In this document: positions 5,626 to 36,515 of the stretch, piece by piece
Numbering within the stretch: the first letter of the stretch is position 1
Layout of the letters: every line of letters starts with the position of its first letter
Origin: a virus
Strand: one strand, 5' to 3'
Length of the DNA stretch: 36,627 nucleotides
Virus record (IMG/VR): IMGVR_UViG_3300047317_000696
Location: 1 to 36,627 of that record
The notes under the pieces: model-generated
Told to the model about the DNA's origin: nothing
The model's input: only the letters and a program-made list of their open reading frames with translations
Databases searched by the model: none
Program-made: the position numbers and the translations under genes

Positions 5626-6809
5626 AGCTCCAGGCCATCACGGCCTACGGCGAAGTCTGCCAATGCTGCGGTGAAGAGTTTCTCGACTTCTTGCAGCTCG
5701 ATCATATTCACAACGATGGTGCCGCGGAGCGGGCTGGTCGCGGTCCCCGCGGCACCAACTTTTATCGCGCGCTGCGCAAAGCAGGCTGGCCGCAAGGTCG
5801 TCTCGCTGTGCTCTGCGCAAACTGCAACGTGGCGAAGCACATAAACAAGGGGTTTTGCCCATGCAGACGCGCCAAGACTATGTCCATCCATTCCTATCCC
5901 AAGATCCATCACGAGGGCCACCGCGAGCTCAAGAAACTGTTCAACGGCCCAGTCGTTGTCGAAGAGAAAGTCGACGGGAGCCAGATCTCGTTCGGCGTGA
6001 TCGACGGCGAGCTTTATGCGCGCTCGAAGGGCGCCGCGCTCGATCTCGACTCACCCGACAAGCTCTTCGCCTCGGCAGTCAGCACGATCAAAGAGCTTCG
6101 GCCAAAACTCGTGCCAGGTGCTGTTTACCGCGGCGAGTACCTGTCTCGACCGAAGCACAACACTTTGCCCTATGACCGTATCCCGGCACAGCACATCATG
6201 CTCTATGACATCGAGGTAGAGCATAACAACTATGTAGATAGACTCTATCTTGCTAACACGGCAGCCTACCTCGGTCTCGAAACGGTGCCCTGTTATTTCT
6301 GGGGCAAGCTCGCGAACTTCGGCGAATTAGCCCAATTCATGGGCCAGAAGTCCGCACTCGGCGGAGTCGAAATCGAAGGCATCGTCGTCAAGAACCACGG
6401 CCAGTTTGGCGCCGATGACAAACCTCTGATGGCCAAGTTGGTGCGCGATGGCTTCAAAGAGCTCAATTCTGGCGAGTGGCGTTCAGCGAATCCGACGCCG
6501 ACTGACATCCGCGAGGCGATCGGTCGTCTGGTCAGCACGCCGGCTCGCTGGGAGAAAGCGGTTCAACATCTGCGAGACGCCGGCAAGCTCACCGAAAGCG
6601 TCAAAGACATTGGCCCCGCGATCAAAGAGCTCCAGGGCGACATCGACGAGGAGTGCAAAGAGCTCATCATTGAGCGACTTCTCGCGTGGGCTTTGCCGAC
6701 GATACGCAGGCGCGCAGTCGCAGGGTTCCCCGATTGGTACAAAGCCCGCCTGGGTGCCGCTAACGATAACGATGCCGCTGAACTACCACTGGCGAGCTCT
6801 GGCACATGA
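5505..6809 (+). CDS. Fusion of HNH (endonuclease VII-like) domain and RNA ligase
   Basis: 434 residues in one uninterrupted frame. Residues 12-29 hold a zinc ribbon (C12, C15, C26, C29). Residues 45-120 are an HNH module of the recombination endonuclease VII type: cysteines C52/C55, catalytic LDHIHNDG with D66-H67, C104-x2-C107, and the typical GFCP end. Residues from 126 form an ATP-dependent RNA ligase of the Rnl2-like family: EKVDGS with nucleophile K155, YRGEYL (208-213), VEIEGIVVK (288-296) and motif V MAKLV with K311. The only start codon available is a TTG at 5505 without a visible Shine-Dalgarno sequence. An in-frame ATG at 5880 could start the ligase alone but also lacks a ribosome site. 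Confidence 0.8.
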   Translation: MADNVTAAGAQCTRCKRRPELGRRVCDVCRESAALACRRLKLQAITAYGEVCQCCGEEFLDFLQLDHIHNDGAAERAGRGPRGTNFYRALRKAGWPQGRLAVLCANCNVAKHINKGFCPCRRAKTMSIHSYPKIHHEGHRELKKLFNGPVVVEEKVDGSQISFGVIDGELYARSKGAALDLDSPDKLFASAVSTIKELRPKLVPGAVYRGEYLSRPKHNTLPYDRIPAQHIMLYDIEVEHNNYVDRLYLANTAAYLGLETVPCYFWGKLANFGELAQFMGQKSALGGVEIEGIVVKNHGQFGADDKPLMAKLVRDGFKELNSGEWRSANPTPTDIREAIGRLVSTPARWEKAVQHLRDAGKLTESVKDIGPAIKELQGDIDEECKELIIERLLAWALPTIRRRAVAGFPDWYKARLGAANDNDAAELPLASSGT

Positions 6810-8748: not shown

Positions 8749-9371
8749 ACCGATAGGATCAGATTGGGCGCCACGGCAGTCGTCAGGGTGACTGATACCG
8801 AAGCTGGCGTCGGGATAACCTGCCCGAGCACGAGCGGCGTACCCACCGAGGCGAACGTAAACACCGAGAATTGCCCGATGTCGCATGCCAGGCCGTTAGC
8901 GATTCCAGGCTGGGTCGTCGCGGGCTGGAAGCGCGCAAACACCCAGATATGGCTACCCACCGGAGGCGTATGCGCGAGGTTGCCACCGTTCGAATAGCGA
9001 CCCACGGAGCCCGTGTAGTCGGTCGCAGTCGTGTCGATGGCGCGGATGGTCAGCGGCTGAATCGTGCCGTCTGGAGCGTTCGGCGTGGTCGCAATGCCGA
9101 ACTCCTGCGTGAGCGCACCAGCGCCCACAGCAGACGTTACGAAATAGACCTTGTTCAGCTTGATCGTGCGTGCGACCTGGCCGATGTACAGAAAATAGGC
9201 CGTACCGGCAATGGTCGGAAACGATGTTGCGAGCTGAAGCATGCTCGAGCATCGCAGTTGGGTGTTCTCGCCAAGCGGCGTGATCGCCGACTGGTCATAT
9301 GCACGCAGCGCTGCGCCGGAAGCTAACCCGCCGCGATGCGCTGCATATCTCTCGTCATTTGATAGGGACAT
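8745..9371 (-). CDS. Putative virion protein, beta-rich, 208 residues
   Basis: Overlaps the end of the large proline-rich gene by 17 bases and the next gene by an ATGA. Composition is rich in Thr, Val, Gly and Ala with few charges and no cysteine clusters, with alternating patterns (VYFVTSAVGAGALTQEFGIATTP; HIWVFARFQPATT) typical of beta-sandwich virion proteins such as decoration or fibre-head domains. I do not recognise the family. Virion role is inferred from operon position. Confidence 0.5.
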   Translation of the reverse strand: MSLSNDERYAAHRGGLASGAALRAYDQSAITPLGENTQLRCSSMLQLATSFPTIAGTAYFLYIGQVARTIKLNKVYFVTSAVGAGALTQEFGIATTPNAPDGTIQPLTIRAIDTTATDYTGSVGRYSNGGNLAHTPPVGSHIWVFARFQPATTQPGIANGLACDIGQFSVFTFASVGTPLVLGQVIPTPASVSVTLTTAVAPNLILSV

Positions 9372-12300
9372 TCAATTCCTCGTCGATTTCTTTCTTTAGT
9401 TTCTCGTTGGCATCGCGGTAATCCGCGCTCTTATATCCTGACATACCGGCACTTAGACCTCGGCTCATATTAGGACTCTTGATCACATCGCCGACCGACT
9501 GGGCAATGCTGCCGTAGGTATGCAGTGAGCGCTGTTCGCCGAGCAGCTTATGAATTAGGTCCTGCGAACCACTACCCTTTTGCTCTTGCGCGGCGCCCTG
9601 AGCGACCTTGTCTTCGACACCCTTGATGAGCTCATGCTTGGCATTTGCCTTATCCAGCTGTGTTAGTAGGCTAGGGCCACCGATCGAATCGGCAGGCAAG
9701 TTGCTCGGGAGTTGGCCCGCAGCTTCGGCCTCTTTGAGCTTCTTTTTCTTCGCTGCCTTGAGCCCGTAAGCAATCGGCCGCATGGCCTCATCTTCGCCGG
9801 GTCGCATCGGTTTGTTGTTCTGCCGCTCGTGCTTACGCAGCTCTGACATCAGGTCACGCTGCACGGCGTCGGCCTGACGCAGCGTGAAGTGACTTGGCCC
9901 ATAGTCTGGCGACATTGGCTCTGCCAGCTTGAGGCCTGGCGATGCACGCATCGGCTTGTTCTCGGGCAAGAGGTTCAATGGCTCGACGAGCTGGTTGCGC
10001 TTTGGCTGATACATCTGCGAAACGCCGCCATGCAGCCACTGCGATGCATCAGGAGGAGCCGGGCTTGTCGGCTGCGGGTTGAGCCCCGCTGGCGGCTGCG
10101 GGTGCAACGATGCACCGAGCGTGGGCTCCTCGAGCTGCGGAAAATGACCGAGGCTCGGCTGCGGGTGTGGGCCGGTGCCAGCGATAGGCACGTTCGGTCC
10201 ACTCATAGCAGGGAAGGGGAACGGCTTCGGCTGGTAGCGCCCTGGCTCGTCAACGCGCTGCTCCGTGGGCAAGAGATTGATCTTCGGCGCCGTGTTAGGC
10301 GGCCTGACATAAGAGCCTGGCGGCGGTCTATGCGGCGGCAGAATAGGGTCGGGCGCGCGGAGGCGACTAGACACCTGGAACGGCGTGCGTGTCGACTGCG
10401 GCTGCGGCTGAAGCAACGCTTGTGCATGCGTTGGCTGCGCGATGCCGGTCATCGGTCGCGGCCGAACGTTCACGCGGCTTGGATCAGCGCCCTGTTGCTC
10501 GGGCAACGCCAAGTTGATGCTCGGTGCGTGCGGTGCGCCGGCTTGAAACGAAGGCCCACCGAGGTCGAGTTGAGGTCGATGCAGCTGCATCTGATTGGGC
10601 TCGACTTGCTGAGGGAAAGGCGGCGGGTTCGCGGGACCTAGCAGCTTGGGCTGTTCGAGGTCGTAGTCGTTGTGCGGACGAGAAGGGAAAGCGCCCGCGG
10701 GTGTCGCAGGCAGACGGCCGAGGTTGAGGCGCGCAAGCGGACCTTCCTGCTCGAACTGCTTGAAATCAGGCTCGAGGTTCGGCGAGCCAAGACCCAGCGG
10801 CGCGCGGTGGAACGACTCACCCACGCGAGGTTGCATGAGGTTCAGGCGAGTCGGCGCCTCTGCTGGCTTCGGGCCATTGACGACGACGGGCTTGGGCTTC
10901 TTGTTCTGTGTGCCATAGCTGCGCAGCGGATGCTTGGGCTGCTTGGGTTTGAACGCTTCGGGGATCTCGGGGCGATGCGGCTTGGCAGCTGATGGCTGCG
11001 GCTCCATGCTCGGGCGCGGCTTCGCAAAGTTAGGCAGCGAGGCCTTAGCTGGCTGCGGATAGTAGCCAGCAGGCGTCTCTGGTCGCGCGCCAAGCTTCGG
11101 CGCCGGTTTGGGCTGCGCCTTGGCAGGAGTCGGCTGCGGGTAGTGTCCAGCGCTCGGAGCCGGCCCCATGGGCGCGTCTGGGCGTGCGCCGAGGTTGGCC
11201 GGTGGTTCTACCGGCGGGTTCGCTGGCCTCGCTCCTGAGGGCGCTGGTAGCCTCGCAGGCGGTCCATGCTGCGGTCGTACGGGCGGTCTAGCGGTCGGCC
11301 GCTCATGAGGCTCGAGTGGCGGCTCTTGCCCTTGAAACTTGCCGACACCCTTGAGCTCGGGCTGCGGGAAATGACCTGCAGTCGGCTGCGGATTGCGGCC
11401 AAGGTTTAGGCGGCCTAGAGCCTGCTCTTCGAGCCATCGGTCGGGTGAGTCACCCATCGAAAGATTCGGCACCTCGAGCGACGGTCTAAAGCCGTGCGGC
11501 TGGCTTGGTCGAAGCTTGATCGAATCGGGATGCGTGCCGAGGTTCAGGCGATAGGGCGGACGCGAAGGCAGCTCGGGCGGCGGAGACGGAAAAGCACCCG
11601 CGGGCGTTTGCGGGTGCGAGCCCAAGTGATGCTGCAAAAGGTTCTGTTCCTCGTCCCAGTCAGTCAGGTGGTCGGGCGCATGCGGCGACGGCTGCGGATA
11701 GTGCCCGAGGGGCGCTGCAGGCTGCGTGGCAGGAGGCCCGGGGTCTCTGGGTGCAGGGGGTAGGCTCGGCGTTGGCGCGGCTGTAGGGGGCGCTGGCTGC
11801 GGGTAATGACCCGCTGAAACAGGCTGCGGAAAGTAGCCGGCGGGCGGCACTTCGGGCGGCGTCTCATAGGGTGGCCGAGGTCTCGGCTGGACCGGGTTGC
11901 GCACTTGGGGTGCACCCACCGCGCCCGAGCTCGGGAGCGTGACGTTGAGCGTCGTCGGGTCTGCCGGTGGTACGACCTTAGGCTCTGGAACGCTGCCGGA
12001 ACGCTTCGCCTCAGCCCTCGGGTTTGATCGCGAGTCAGCATCGGTGAGCTTAGGGCCTTGTGGCAGCGGCGCGCGTTTGACGGGCGGCTCGGGCTCGTAA
12101 GGTTGCGGCTGGAGCTTGCTCAGATGCGACCGAACGACTTCTGCCTTTTCGGGCGCGTTCGCAAACTCGTGTGTCTTAGCCGCGGCCTCAAGGTCCGCGG
12201 CAATGTGTTCAGTCGGCACAGCGAGATCACCGACCGTTTCATTCACGACCGCGCCGTCTGGCAGCGTGCGTGTGCCGCCCGTGCTGGCGTTCATGACAGC

Positions 12301-34579: not shown

Positions 34580-34655
34580 GGGGTCAGAGTAATATGGGCC
34601 GAGGCGAGGCGAAATAGCCTCGAAATCCAAGGTACGGGGGTCTATACCGCCAGAT

Positions 34656-35009
34656 ATGCTGATCTTCGGACCGGAACGGTGGGCGCCTGCCGAGTACAAG
34701 CTCGTAGAAACGCCTGTCGGCCAGGCATGCTTGTCATGCGGTGAGCTCATTGCCGAGGGTGACTCAGGCACGATCACGGCTGTTGTTCGAGAGAAGGGGA
34801 AGGCAACGACGTCTCCCCAGCATCGCGAGTGCTTTCTGCGCCGCATCGTAGGGTCTGTCGGCCATCAGCAAGGCACTTGCTCTTGCTACGGCGGCCAGCT
34901 CGAAGACCCACTCGAGATGACCAAGCGCGAGGCGGCCATTGCTGCGGTCAAACTGTTTGAAAGGCGGACATGCCACGCACCTCGCGTAGCCAGCGATTGG
35001 ATCGAATAG
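34656..35009 (+). CDS. Conserved zinc-cysteine phage protein, 117 residues
   Basis: Pattern well known from phages: CLSCGELIAEGDSGTI (C25, C28), PQHRECFLRRIVGSVGHQ (H56, C59, H70), then CSCYGG (C75, C77) and LEDPLEMTKREAAIAAV (82-98). Six Cys/His ligands fit one or two zinc sites. Function unknown. It is divergent from the triplet cluster with 76 bases between start codons, where the promoters of both must lie or overlap, and it is the last gene before the long noncoding stretch. Confidence 0.78.
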   Translation: MLIFGPERWAPAEYKLVETPVGQACLSCGELIAEGDSGTITAVVREKGKATTSPQHRECFLRRIVGSVGHQQGTCSCYGGQLEDPLEMTKREAAIAAVKLFERRTCHAPRVASDWIE

Positions 35010-35253
35010 CTTTCAACCGGGCACGTCGCCGCTGCCGCTGGCCAGTACCACTCGAGCTTCGCTTTCGCATATACACAGAGCTGGGGTTTTGGCCCCTTGT
35101 GAAACCAAAACACGCGCGAAGAACGAGGGGCTAGGCGCTTGCGTGCGCATACCTGTAGGCCCACGCGAAAACAGGATCGGCCTCGAGCAAGTGTACCCCG
35201 GTCGCTCCCACCGCCTCGCGCGCACGCGCACGAGCTACGCGGGCTGATCGCTC

Positions 35254-35291
35254 CGCGAGCTGAGGGGATGCTACGCGAGCTGAGGGGATGC
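35254..35291. repeat. Two-copy 18-base direct repeat
   Basis: CGCGAGCTGAGGGGATGC occurs at 35254-35271 and 35274-35291, period 20, separated by TA. The second copy runs straight into the ATGCCAT-GGGG-ATGGCAT hairpin. Confidence 0.9.
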
Positions 35292-35362
35292 CATGGGGAT
35301 GGCATGACTCGCGAGACGTGCGAGGCAAGACTCGTCGCTGTAGCAGCCTATAGGCGGTCGCC

Positions 35363-35407
35363 GAGCTAGCGCCGAGGTCGAGCTAGCGCCGAGGTCGAGC
35401 TAGCGCC
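35363..35407. repeat. Tandem 17-base repeat, 2.6 copies
   Basis: GAGCTAGCGCCGAGGTC occurs at 35363-35379 and 35380-35396 without a gap, with a partial third copy (GAGCTAGCGCC) at 35397-35407. The unit includes the palindrome GCTAGC. Iteron-like in arrangement, but too few copies for a firm origin call. Confidence 0.9.
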
Positions 35408-35413
35408 GCTGCG

Positions 35414-35472
35414 CGCCACGTCGTGCGAGCAATCGAGCCTCGGCGCCGAGGTCGCACCCTCATGACGTGGCG
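35414..35472 (+). ncRNA. Nested stem structure (possible RNA)
   Basis: CGCCACGTC (35414-35422) pairs with GACGTGGCG (35464-35472), nine perfect pairs. Directly inside, GTGCGA (35423-35428) pairs with TCGCAC (35452-35457). Innermost, CCTCGGCGCCGAGG (35438-35451) is a perfect palindrome. The three stems are colinear and stack on one side. A variant of the 21 bases at 35433-35453 recurs at 35564-35584 with two differences. Confidence 0.6.
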
Positions 35473-35584
35473 GCGTTACAGCCTAGCTGCATTTGGCCAT
35501 TAGCAGGTGTTGAGAAACGATCGTTATGCGACAGCGGCGGAATATTCCGTTAGCGTAGCGTCGTCGAGCCTCGGCACCGATGTC

Positions 35585-35624
35585 CCCAAGTGGGTACACT
35601 CGATGCTTTTCTGTCGAGCTTGGG
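35585..35624 (+). ncRNA. Two-part stem-loop
   Basis: CCCAAG (35585-35590) pairs with CTTGGG (35619-35624) and CTCGA (35599-35603) pairs with TCGAG (35614-35618), with an eight-base bulge on the 5' side and a T-rich loop. Followed at once by four tandem TCGC units (35625-35640). Confidence 0.5.
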
Positions 35625-35658
35625 TCGCTCGCTCGCTCGCAAAACGTATATGATCGTA

Positions 35659-35688
35659 TTGTCATATAGTGTCACTCGGCTATGACAA
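35659..35688. repeat. Eight-base inverted repeat TTGTCATA/TATGACAA
   Basis: TTGTCATA (35659-35666) and TATGACAA (35681-35688), 14 bases apart. It also reads as a weak promoter pair (TTGTCA, 16-base spacer, TATGAC) on the plus strand. May be an operator or an RNA stem. Confidence 0.55.
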
Positions 35689-35820
35689 AATTGTCCGGCC
35701 TTTCCAGCGTTTTCGGTTTTGCGCGCGACTCGCCTCGATTGCCTCGAAGATTCATTGCACGGCCTAAACCCTCGAAAGCACCACGGTTCGCGGCCATCTA
35801 GATACCTTCTATCTCGCATC

Positions 35821-35849
35821 TTGACGTTTTCTTGCTCGAAGCATGTAGA
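35821..35849 (+). promoter_or_regulatory. Candidate promoter TTGACG-17-TGTAGA
   Basis: TTGACG at 35821-35826, a 17-base spacer, then TGTAGA at 35844-35849. It lies about 130 bases upstream of the boxA-like site and the structured leader, and would drive the right-hand plus-strand genes. The -10 is imperfect. Confidence 0.4.
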
Positions 35850-35980
35850 CAGTCGCCGCTGAATCGAATAGAGCTAGCCAAGTCAACGTCACTTGCTGCT
35901 CAGGAGGCAGCCGCAACGAGATCCGCCGCCACGCGCGGCAAACCAGCCACCCCTAACCGGCCGCTCCCGCGTGTGGCCAG

Positions 35981-35994
35981 CGCTCTTTGAAAAC
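35981..35994 (+). promoter_or_regulatory. boxA-like antitermination sequence
   Basis: CGCTCTTTGAAAAC. The first seven bases equal the start of lambda nut boxA (CGCTCTT), and CTCTTTGAAAA is also the form found in rRNA leader/spacer boxA sites. It is followed by two stem-loop elements and then by genes with strong ribosome sites, an arrangement like a nut or put leader. Identification is by sequence likeness only. Confidence 0.45.
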
Positions 35995-36004
35995 TGAATA
36001 GCAA

Positions 36005-36137
36005 CGCACCATCAGCCCTAGGGGCTGTCGTGCGATGGCACGGATTGTGACCTTGAGAGGGTCGCAGTCTGGCAACGGGTTGGCGTAGCGCAGGTGAGAG
36101 CGCGCGGCGCCAACCTACATGCCAGATTAGGGTCACA
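36005..36137 (+). ncRNA. Structured leader: hairpin plus four nested colinear stems
   Basis: First hairpin: CGCAC (36005-36009)/GTGCG (36030-36034) with inner CAGCCC (36013-36018)/GGGCTG (36022-36027). Second element, four nested stems: TGTGACC (36046-36052)/GGTCACA (36131-36137), TCTGGCA (36068-36074)/TGCCAGA (36120-36126), GGTTGGCG (36078-36085)/CGCCAACC (36108-36115), GCGC (36088-36091)/GCGC (36100-36103) with loop AGGTGAGA. All pairs are perfect Watson-Crick. It ends 27 bases before the start codon of the next gene, leaving the ribosome site GGAGG free. Confidence 0.72.
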
Positions 36138-36163
36138 GTGGCCCCGATCTGTGGAGGCTAACC

Positions 36164-36451
36164 ATGGCAACTAGGTATAGTGGCAGTCTGACTATATATG
36201 TCAGACTGTTACCTGATAGTATCAATTACACCGCAAGCATAAGGCGTGAGGGTTGCTCTATATCGATGCAACGCAACTTGCGCTTGTCTGCCGATGCGGC
36301 TGGCAAGATTGCAGCCGATAGTGCCGAGGCATACGACGCAATCGCTCACTCTGCTTTGTCGTTTGGCACAAGCGAGCATGGCGACGACGTTGGCTCGTTT
36401 GCTGAACTGGATCCTAACACGGATAGTTGGCTCATTCGCCGCCGTAAGTAG
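36164..36451 (+). CDS. Small conserved phage protein, 95 residues
   Basis: The ATG is preceded by GTGGAGG with a six-base spacer, the strongest ribosome site type in the window. N-terminus MATRYSGSLTIYVRLL and the segment ADSAEAYDAIAHSALSFG (51-68) match a pattern I know from small phage proteins of unknown function. Codons are less GC-biased than in the structural genes. A nine-pair hairpin, CAGTCTGAC (36184-36192)/GTCAGACTG (36200-36208) with loop TATATAT, lies within codons 7-15. It is the first gene after the structured leader. Confidence 0.7.
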   Translation: MATRYSGSLTIYVRLLPDSINYTASIRREGCSISMQRNLRLSADAAGKIAADSAEAYDAIAHSALSFGTSEHGDDVGSFAELDPNTDSWLIRRRK

Positions 36452-36460
36452 CGTCACGAT

Positions 36461-36486
36461 AGCCTAGCGGCATAGGTCGCTAGGCT
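36461..36486 (+). terminator. Intercistronic hairpin
   Basis: AGCCTAGCG (36461-36469) pairs with CGCTAGGCT (36478-36486), nine perfect pairs with an eight-base loop; CAC and GTG flank it and can extend the stem across a small internal loop. No T run follows, so it is more likely a processing or stabilising element than a terminator. Confidence 0.5.
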
Positions 36487-36515
36487 GTAGTGGCACTATA
36501 TGTGGAGGTAGTAAC

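Follow-up and report, generated by a model that had tools for sequence, protein, structure and literature searches.

A ribosomal-type boxA and a conserved structured leader in the control region of a phage operon

A gene-free stretch of 1.15 kb (positions 35010–36163) in a viral genome is the upstream control region for an operon of small phage genes that is transcribed rightward. Its last ~200 nt contain, in order, a hairpin, a ribosomal-type boxA, a stem-loop, a four-way junction and a Shine-Dalgarno (SD) sequence, and this leader defines a new RNA family, supported by covariation and not represented in Rfam. Taking our analyses together, we consider it probable that the leader works by rRNA-type, NusB/NusE-dependent antitermination, with its structure controlling the first ribosome-binding site. 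The results suggest that the phage borrows the ribosomal antitermination machinery of the cell for one operon.

The DNA analyzed here (the window) is the 36,627-nucleotide stretch of IMG/VR virus record IMGVR_UViG_3300047317_000696. The phage encodes DNA polymerase A, RNA ligase, terminase, portal and capsid genes. Near-complete relatives of this phage are ~60 kb long and uncultured, and we found no direct DNA matches to the window in annotated phages. The gap is flanked by a 117-aa gene on the left and a 95-aa gene on the right, both rightward, and leftward late genes begin at ~34580. The initial annotation had described the gap as gene-free, and this was borne out: no credible gene lies between the end of the 117-aa reading frame (35009) and the start of the 95-aa frame (36164), candidate reading frames were all interrupted in relatives, and 8 out of 9 and 9 out of 11 indels, relative to two relatives, were not multiples of three. 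The frameshifting indels and interrupted frames exclude hidden coding content. The position of the gap is conserved in three phage clades, and the gap is real and non-coding. We found no tRNA near it, and scans for intrinsic terminators and sigma-70 promoters returned nothing exceeding chance.

We collected relatives through terminase, flanking-gene and motif searches, and assigned them to three clades, consisting of the window, L024 and L016 (clade 1), L018 and L022 (clade 2), and L030, L060 and L074 (clade 3). The gap was found in all three clades with two landmarks, block 1 and a block made up of the hairpin and boxA, and the distance from block 1 to boxA was 616–815 bp throughout. The intervening sequence is variable, with identity in the middle of the gap falling to 0.43–0.6 and tandem-array units that differ between phages.

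The boxA occurs once in the window, where none is expected within three mismatches, and once per genome in five relatives of ~60 kb. It is present in six sequence-distinct phages from three clades that otherwise share little DNA similarity. A genome-wide scan with a 23-nt form of boxA returned four stretches: two come from Deltaproteobacteria MAGs (L041 and L042), where the match precedes 16S rRNA by 103 nt, and one has it at the end of a Bdellovibrio contig. In the rRNA leaders of L041 and L042, a hairpin precedes boxA, the same order as in the phage; indeed, hairpin P0 occupies the boxB position of rRNA leaders. The 20-mer was found in 16 of 144 Bdellovibrionota genomes (reversed control, 0), and every locus examined there (9 out of 9) lies upstream of 16S rRNA, as identified with Rfam. 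The window thus carries the exact 20-mer of the rRNA-leader type seen in L041, L042 and the nine Bdellovibrionota loci. The best match of the TerL, portal and capsid proteins was a phage of Silvanigrella, a member of the Bdellovibrionota, which is consistent with a Bdellovibrionota-type host; we found no good boxA in the Silvanigrella phage. Because boxA matches the rRNA leaders of Deltaproteobacteria and Bdellovibrionota and the structural proteins match a Silvanigrella phage, we take the match to be to the boxA that plausible hosts use for antitermination in their rRNA operons. The order in E. coli rRNA operons is boxB, boxA and boxC, and boxA by itself is both required and enough for the complex to assemble (PMC10250234). 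On reading the sequence, we saw no boxC 18–19 nt downstream of boxA, its place in E. coli. A boxC-like UCUGUGUGGA, present only beside the SD in L024 and L016, ~150 nt away, is probably coincidental.

Fold z-scores, calculated in 150-nt windows with dinucleotide-preserving shuffles, reached −5 to −6 at ~36000–36200 in the window, L024 and L018. Over most of 35010–35900 they lay near 0 in these three phages, apart from a few scattered values close to −3; the coding-region control had a mean of −0.35 and an sd of 1.1. The gene-free character, repeats and stems noted in the initial annotation stood, whereas the unusual structure that it had proposed across the whole stretch was confined to the right end. 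The stems that it named at 35414–35472, 35585–35624 and 36005–36137 all exist, the second as read directly from the sequence; by eye in a five-phage alignment, the first two are not kept in relatives, whereas the structure at 36005–36137 is kept, with covariation.

The last base pair of the junction abuts the SD of the small-gene operon (Table 1). Clade 1 alone contributed 18 pairs with double changes, and clade 2 independently adopts the same fold. A covariance model built from clade 1 only scored 72.6 and 70.1 bits on clade 2, against 41.0 and 39.3 bits for sequence only, so that structure adds +31 bits over sequence on the held-out clade. In the five-phage alignment, 97.4% of cells were paired and 23 of 55 pairs were compensatory; none of 500 shuffles equalled this, and slid controls were 28–43% paired. 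The gain in bits on the held-out clade is the more stringent test, since this alignment has only five rows and had itself been adjusted to the structure. Clade 3 retains boxA without the junction. There was no gathering-level Rfam match in the window, GOLLD, ROOL, HEARO and OLE included, and a relaxed E-value gave chance-level matches only.

Table 1. Features of the control region and its flanks, in window coordinates
Feature	Position	Strand	Basis or remarks
Conserved element AATCCAAGGTACGGGGGT	34624–34641		blastn among relatives; common to clades 1 and 2
117-aa accessory gene, left flank, outside the RNA	34656–35009	+	Only in identical copies and L004/L016
Block 1, 60–80 bp, core CAAGTGTACCCC (35188–35199)	35137–35220		Conserved in all three clades
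20-bp tandem repeat GCTACGCGAGCTGAGGGGAT	35250–35291		L024 has the same array
17-bp tandem repeat, 2.8–3 copies	35362–35412		17-bp arrays with their own unit sequence in L024 and L016
Dyad TTGTCATA-N14-TATGACAA	35659–35688		Read from sequence
Hairpin P0 (GGCCGC/GTGGCC)	35959–35978	+	Directly 5' of boxA; covarying pairs
boxA GCTCTTTGAAAACTGAATAG, 20 bases	35982–36001	+	Wider conserved string 35980–36002
Leader stem P1	36005–36034	+	7/10 pairs double-changed across 5 phages
Four-way junction	36039–36153	+	P2 closing, P3 36047–36065, P4/P5 36066–36128, P6 36130–36144; covariation and covariance-model tests
Shine-Dalgarno GGAGG	36153–36157	+	Adjoins P2 3' strand; read from sequence
95-aa first operon gene (gene 1)	36164–36451	+	No known family
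Intercistronic hairpin before gene 2	36449–36498	+	One of a series, one before each operon gene

The ~900 bp upstream of the leader are most simply explained as promoter and operator DNA elements, not folded RNA, possibly together with an origin. Block 1 showed no fold-energy excess; a possible pseudoknot within it (CCTGY/RCAGG) covaries once. We recovered the two tandem arrays of the initial annotation (20 bp × 2.1 at 35250–35291 and 17 bp × 2.8 at 35362–35408) and its repeated 21-mer, at 35433 and 35564. At the position of the dyad, relatives bear 10-bp phased TGACCATATG repeats, and the array in L024 is inverted relative to that in L018 and L022, which suggests a DNA-level rather than an RNA-level element. 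From their sequences, the dyad and the phased repeats may constitute an operator-like element acting at the DNA level.

The conserved element left of the 117-aa gene possibly belongs to the leftward control region. In L018 and L022, its counterpart lies to the left of block 1, just 17 bp away, compared with ~500 bp between the two elements in the window; the 117-aa gene that they flank therefore looks as if it had been inserted into the control region. The product of this gene is cysteine-rich. The L016 copy is near-identical even though the adjoining control regions share just ~72% identity, which points to a recent exchange.

L018 has lost gene 1 yet keeps the leader, now directly before the next gene. 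The leader thus acts for the operon as a whole, not for a single gene, and the gene 1 product is unlikely to control its own expression.

Within the small-gene operon, every gene has its own hairpin ending just 5' of the SD; further examples lie at 5643–5700 and 6010–6050 in L005 and at 1500–1560 and 1790–1860 in L024 (minus strand). Pairing in these intercistronic hairpins is kept while stem sequences vary between phages, resembling RNase III or mRNA-stability sites. Genes 2 and 3 (L005 5353–5643 and 5710–6006) are paralogues, ~30–34% identical, and form an uncharacterized family of ~96 aa without a Pfam match. Clade 3 repeats the same structured leader element before consecutive genes, for example GTAGCGACTAAGAACGCTTAGACGCTACAGTGGGCACTG (L030 minus strand, ~9780–9830 and 10022–10090, and ~8820–8850 and 9070–9120; L060, 1425–1480).

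In the mechanism that we infer, host NusB and NusE, with NusA, NusG and any SuhB equivalent, would bind boxA in the nascent RNA as they do on rRNA operons. RNA polymerase would become a Rho-resistant, fast elongation complex, and the modified polymerase could then traverse the long operon that follows with no need for an N protein from the phage. The junction beside the ribosome-binding site may set gene 1 translation or protect the 5' end.

The same boxA might instead recruit Nus factors to repress, making the leader a translation or Rho switch that senses free NusB/E, that is, the growth state of the host. A boxA in the 5' UTR of E. coli suhB can indeed repress translation and promote Rho termination, boxA sites occur upstream of many genes (PMC5725501), and in several other phage contigs boxA precedes a start codon by ~10 nt. 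Here, however, boxA lies ~160 nt from the first start codon with the large junction between, whereas the search for suhB-type sites had covered the 50 bp next to start codons, and the order of hairpin and boxA matches rRNA leaders; we therefore regard repression as unlikely. Alternatively, the junction could be the main device and boxA secondary, in a riboswitch-like or protein-responsive leader that exposes or hides the first SD by exchanging the junction for two long hairpins and back. Both pairings (P2 and P4, or extended P3 and extended P6) are possible in five out of five phages, P2 terminates on the SD, and the single-sequence minimum-energy fold is the two-hairpin form for P3/P6 in the window and the junction in L024. 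By contrast, compensatory changes (columns 97–161 and 103–155) back P4 of the junction, whereas the alternative helices show no covariation and one is mismatched in clade 2; the persistence of the leader after gene 1 loss also speaks against control by the gene 1 product. We kept this bistable switch as a rival only, because its alternative helices lack covariation, and give it a small chance of being correct.

Two other explanations reach beyond the leader. The repeat-rich part at 35137–35700 could be a replication origin with iterons: the region combines tandem arrays of 17–20 bp with repeats phased at 10 bp and a conserved GGAATATTC box. This is compatible with the leader rather than exclusive of it, but no initiator gene or skew switch is tied to the repeats and the arrays differ among clades, and we consider an origin very unlikely. 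That a single large, ornate non-coding RNA spans the whole 1.15 kb and represents a new class akin to GOLLD and ROOL, as the initial annotation had envisaged, appears barely credible. The length and position of the gap are conserved, the spacing of block 1 and boxA is held at 600–800 bp in all clades, and block 1 might contain a pseudoknot; however, the lack of an Rfam match, the flat z-scores and the non-conservation of the left-hand stems rule out a kilobase-scale RNA, and the low mid-gap identity and the inverted repeat orientation among relatives also argue against it. That interpretation was right about a control locus containing a conserved structured RNA outside Rfam, but this RNA is an mRNA leader of ~200 nt at the right end (35959–36157); the key signature that it had missed is the ribosomal-type boxA with a hairpin 5' of it.

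Antitermination through boxA, our preferred reading, places the element closest to rRNA operon leaders (boxB-boxA, NusB/NusE), with which it shares the 20-nt boxA, a hairpin immediately 5' and an untranslated leader before an operon. It differs in preceding protein genes rather than 16S rRNA, in leading into a four-way junction and then a ribosome-binding site, and, relative to the E. coli family, in lacking boxC at 18–19 nt. Lambda-type nut sites (boxA and boxB, with N protein), which are also found in mEpimmI coliphages (PMC11893012), likewise place boxA in a phage transcript for host Nus factors; here, by contrast, the hairpin comes before rather than after boxA and there is one site per genome, although stem P1 does follow boxA. 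The suhB 5' UTR is likewise an mRNA leader with boxA outside rRNA (PMC5725501), but the phage boxA stands at its greater distance from the start codon within a long structured leader. According to PMC7862264, which cites the finding, boxA also occurs in CRISPR array leaders, where it is similarly recruited outside rRNA to sustain long transcripts; here it precedes a phage protein-gene operon, with a structured leader added. GOLLD, ROOL, HEARO and OLE likewise occupy long gene-free phage stretches, whereas in our phage only ~200 nt are structured, in an mRNA leader without an Rfam match. The HK022 put element consists of two stem-loops that act without boxA or Nus factors, whereas boxA is present and conserved in these phages.

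A 20-mer pattern with two free positions matched 70 IMG/VR stretches (reversed control, 0; the boxA loci are L045–L108). After removal of this phage group and near-duplicates, 45 viral contexts remained, a set that still includes one clade 3 member, L060. An SD and a start codon followed within 400 nt downstream in 37 of the 45 contexts and within 50 nt in 15. Matches of 16–20 nt were also found in SPO1 relatives and in streptococcal, mycobacterial and rhizobial phages, with weak E-values and mostly outside annotated genes. A literature search reaching few subscription journals found no paper describing the exact motif in phages.

Among these contexts, hairpin, boxA, SD and ATG occur together, with boxA ~10 nt from the start, in L046, L052, L062, L063, L090, L098 and L103. 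In L047 (11030–11170), boxA lies inside a duplicated inverted-repeat hairpin beside tRNA-like sequence, and in L091 it directly follows the 3' end of a tRNA-like sequence.

Most of what is known about antitermination in phages comes from lambda-like systems that carry a dedicated N, Q or put element. As a tentative possibility, about which we remain doubtful, many unrelated phages may have captured the ribosomal boxA as an N-independent signal, with this group coupling it to a new four-way-junction leader that switches together with the first ribosome-binding site and so tying operon expression to the ribosome-making state. The boxA motif is short and exact enough to search for, and its role is testable in cultured phages with near-identical sites; SPO1 and several streptococcal and mycobacterial phages carry 17-nt or partial matches. 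If phages broadly reuse the ribosomal boxA, they would gain Rho resistance without encoding a factor, and phage transcription would compete with rRNA synthesis.
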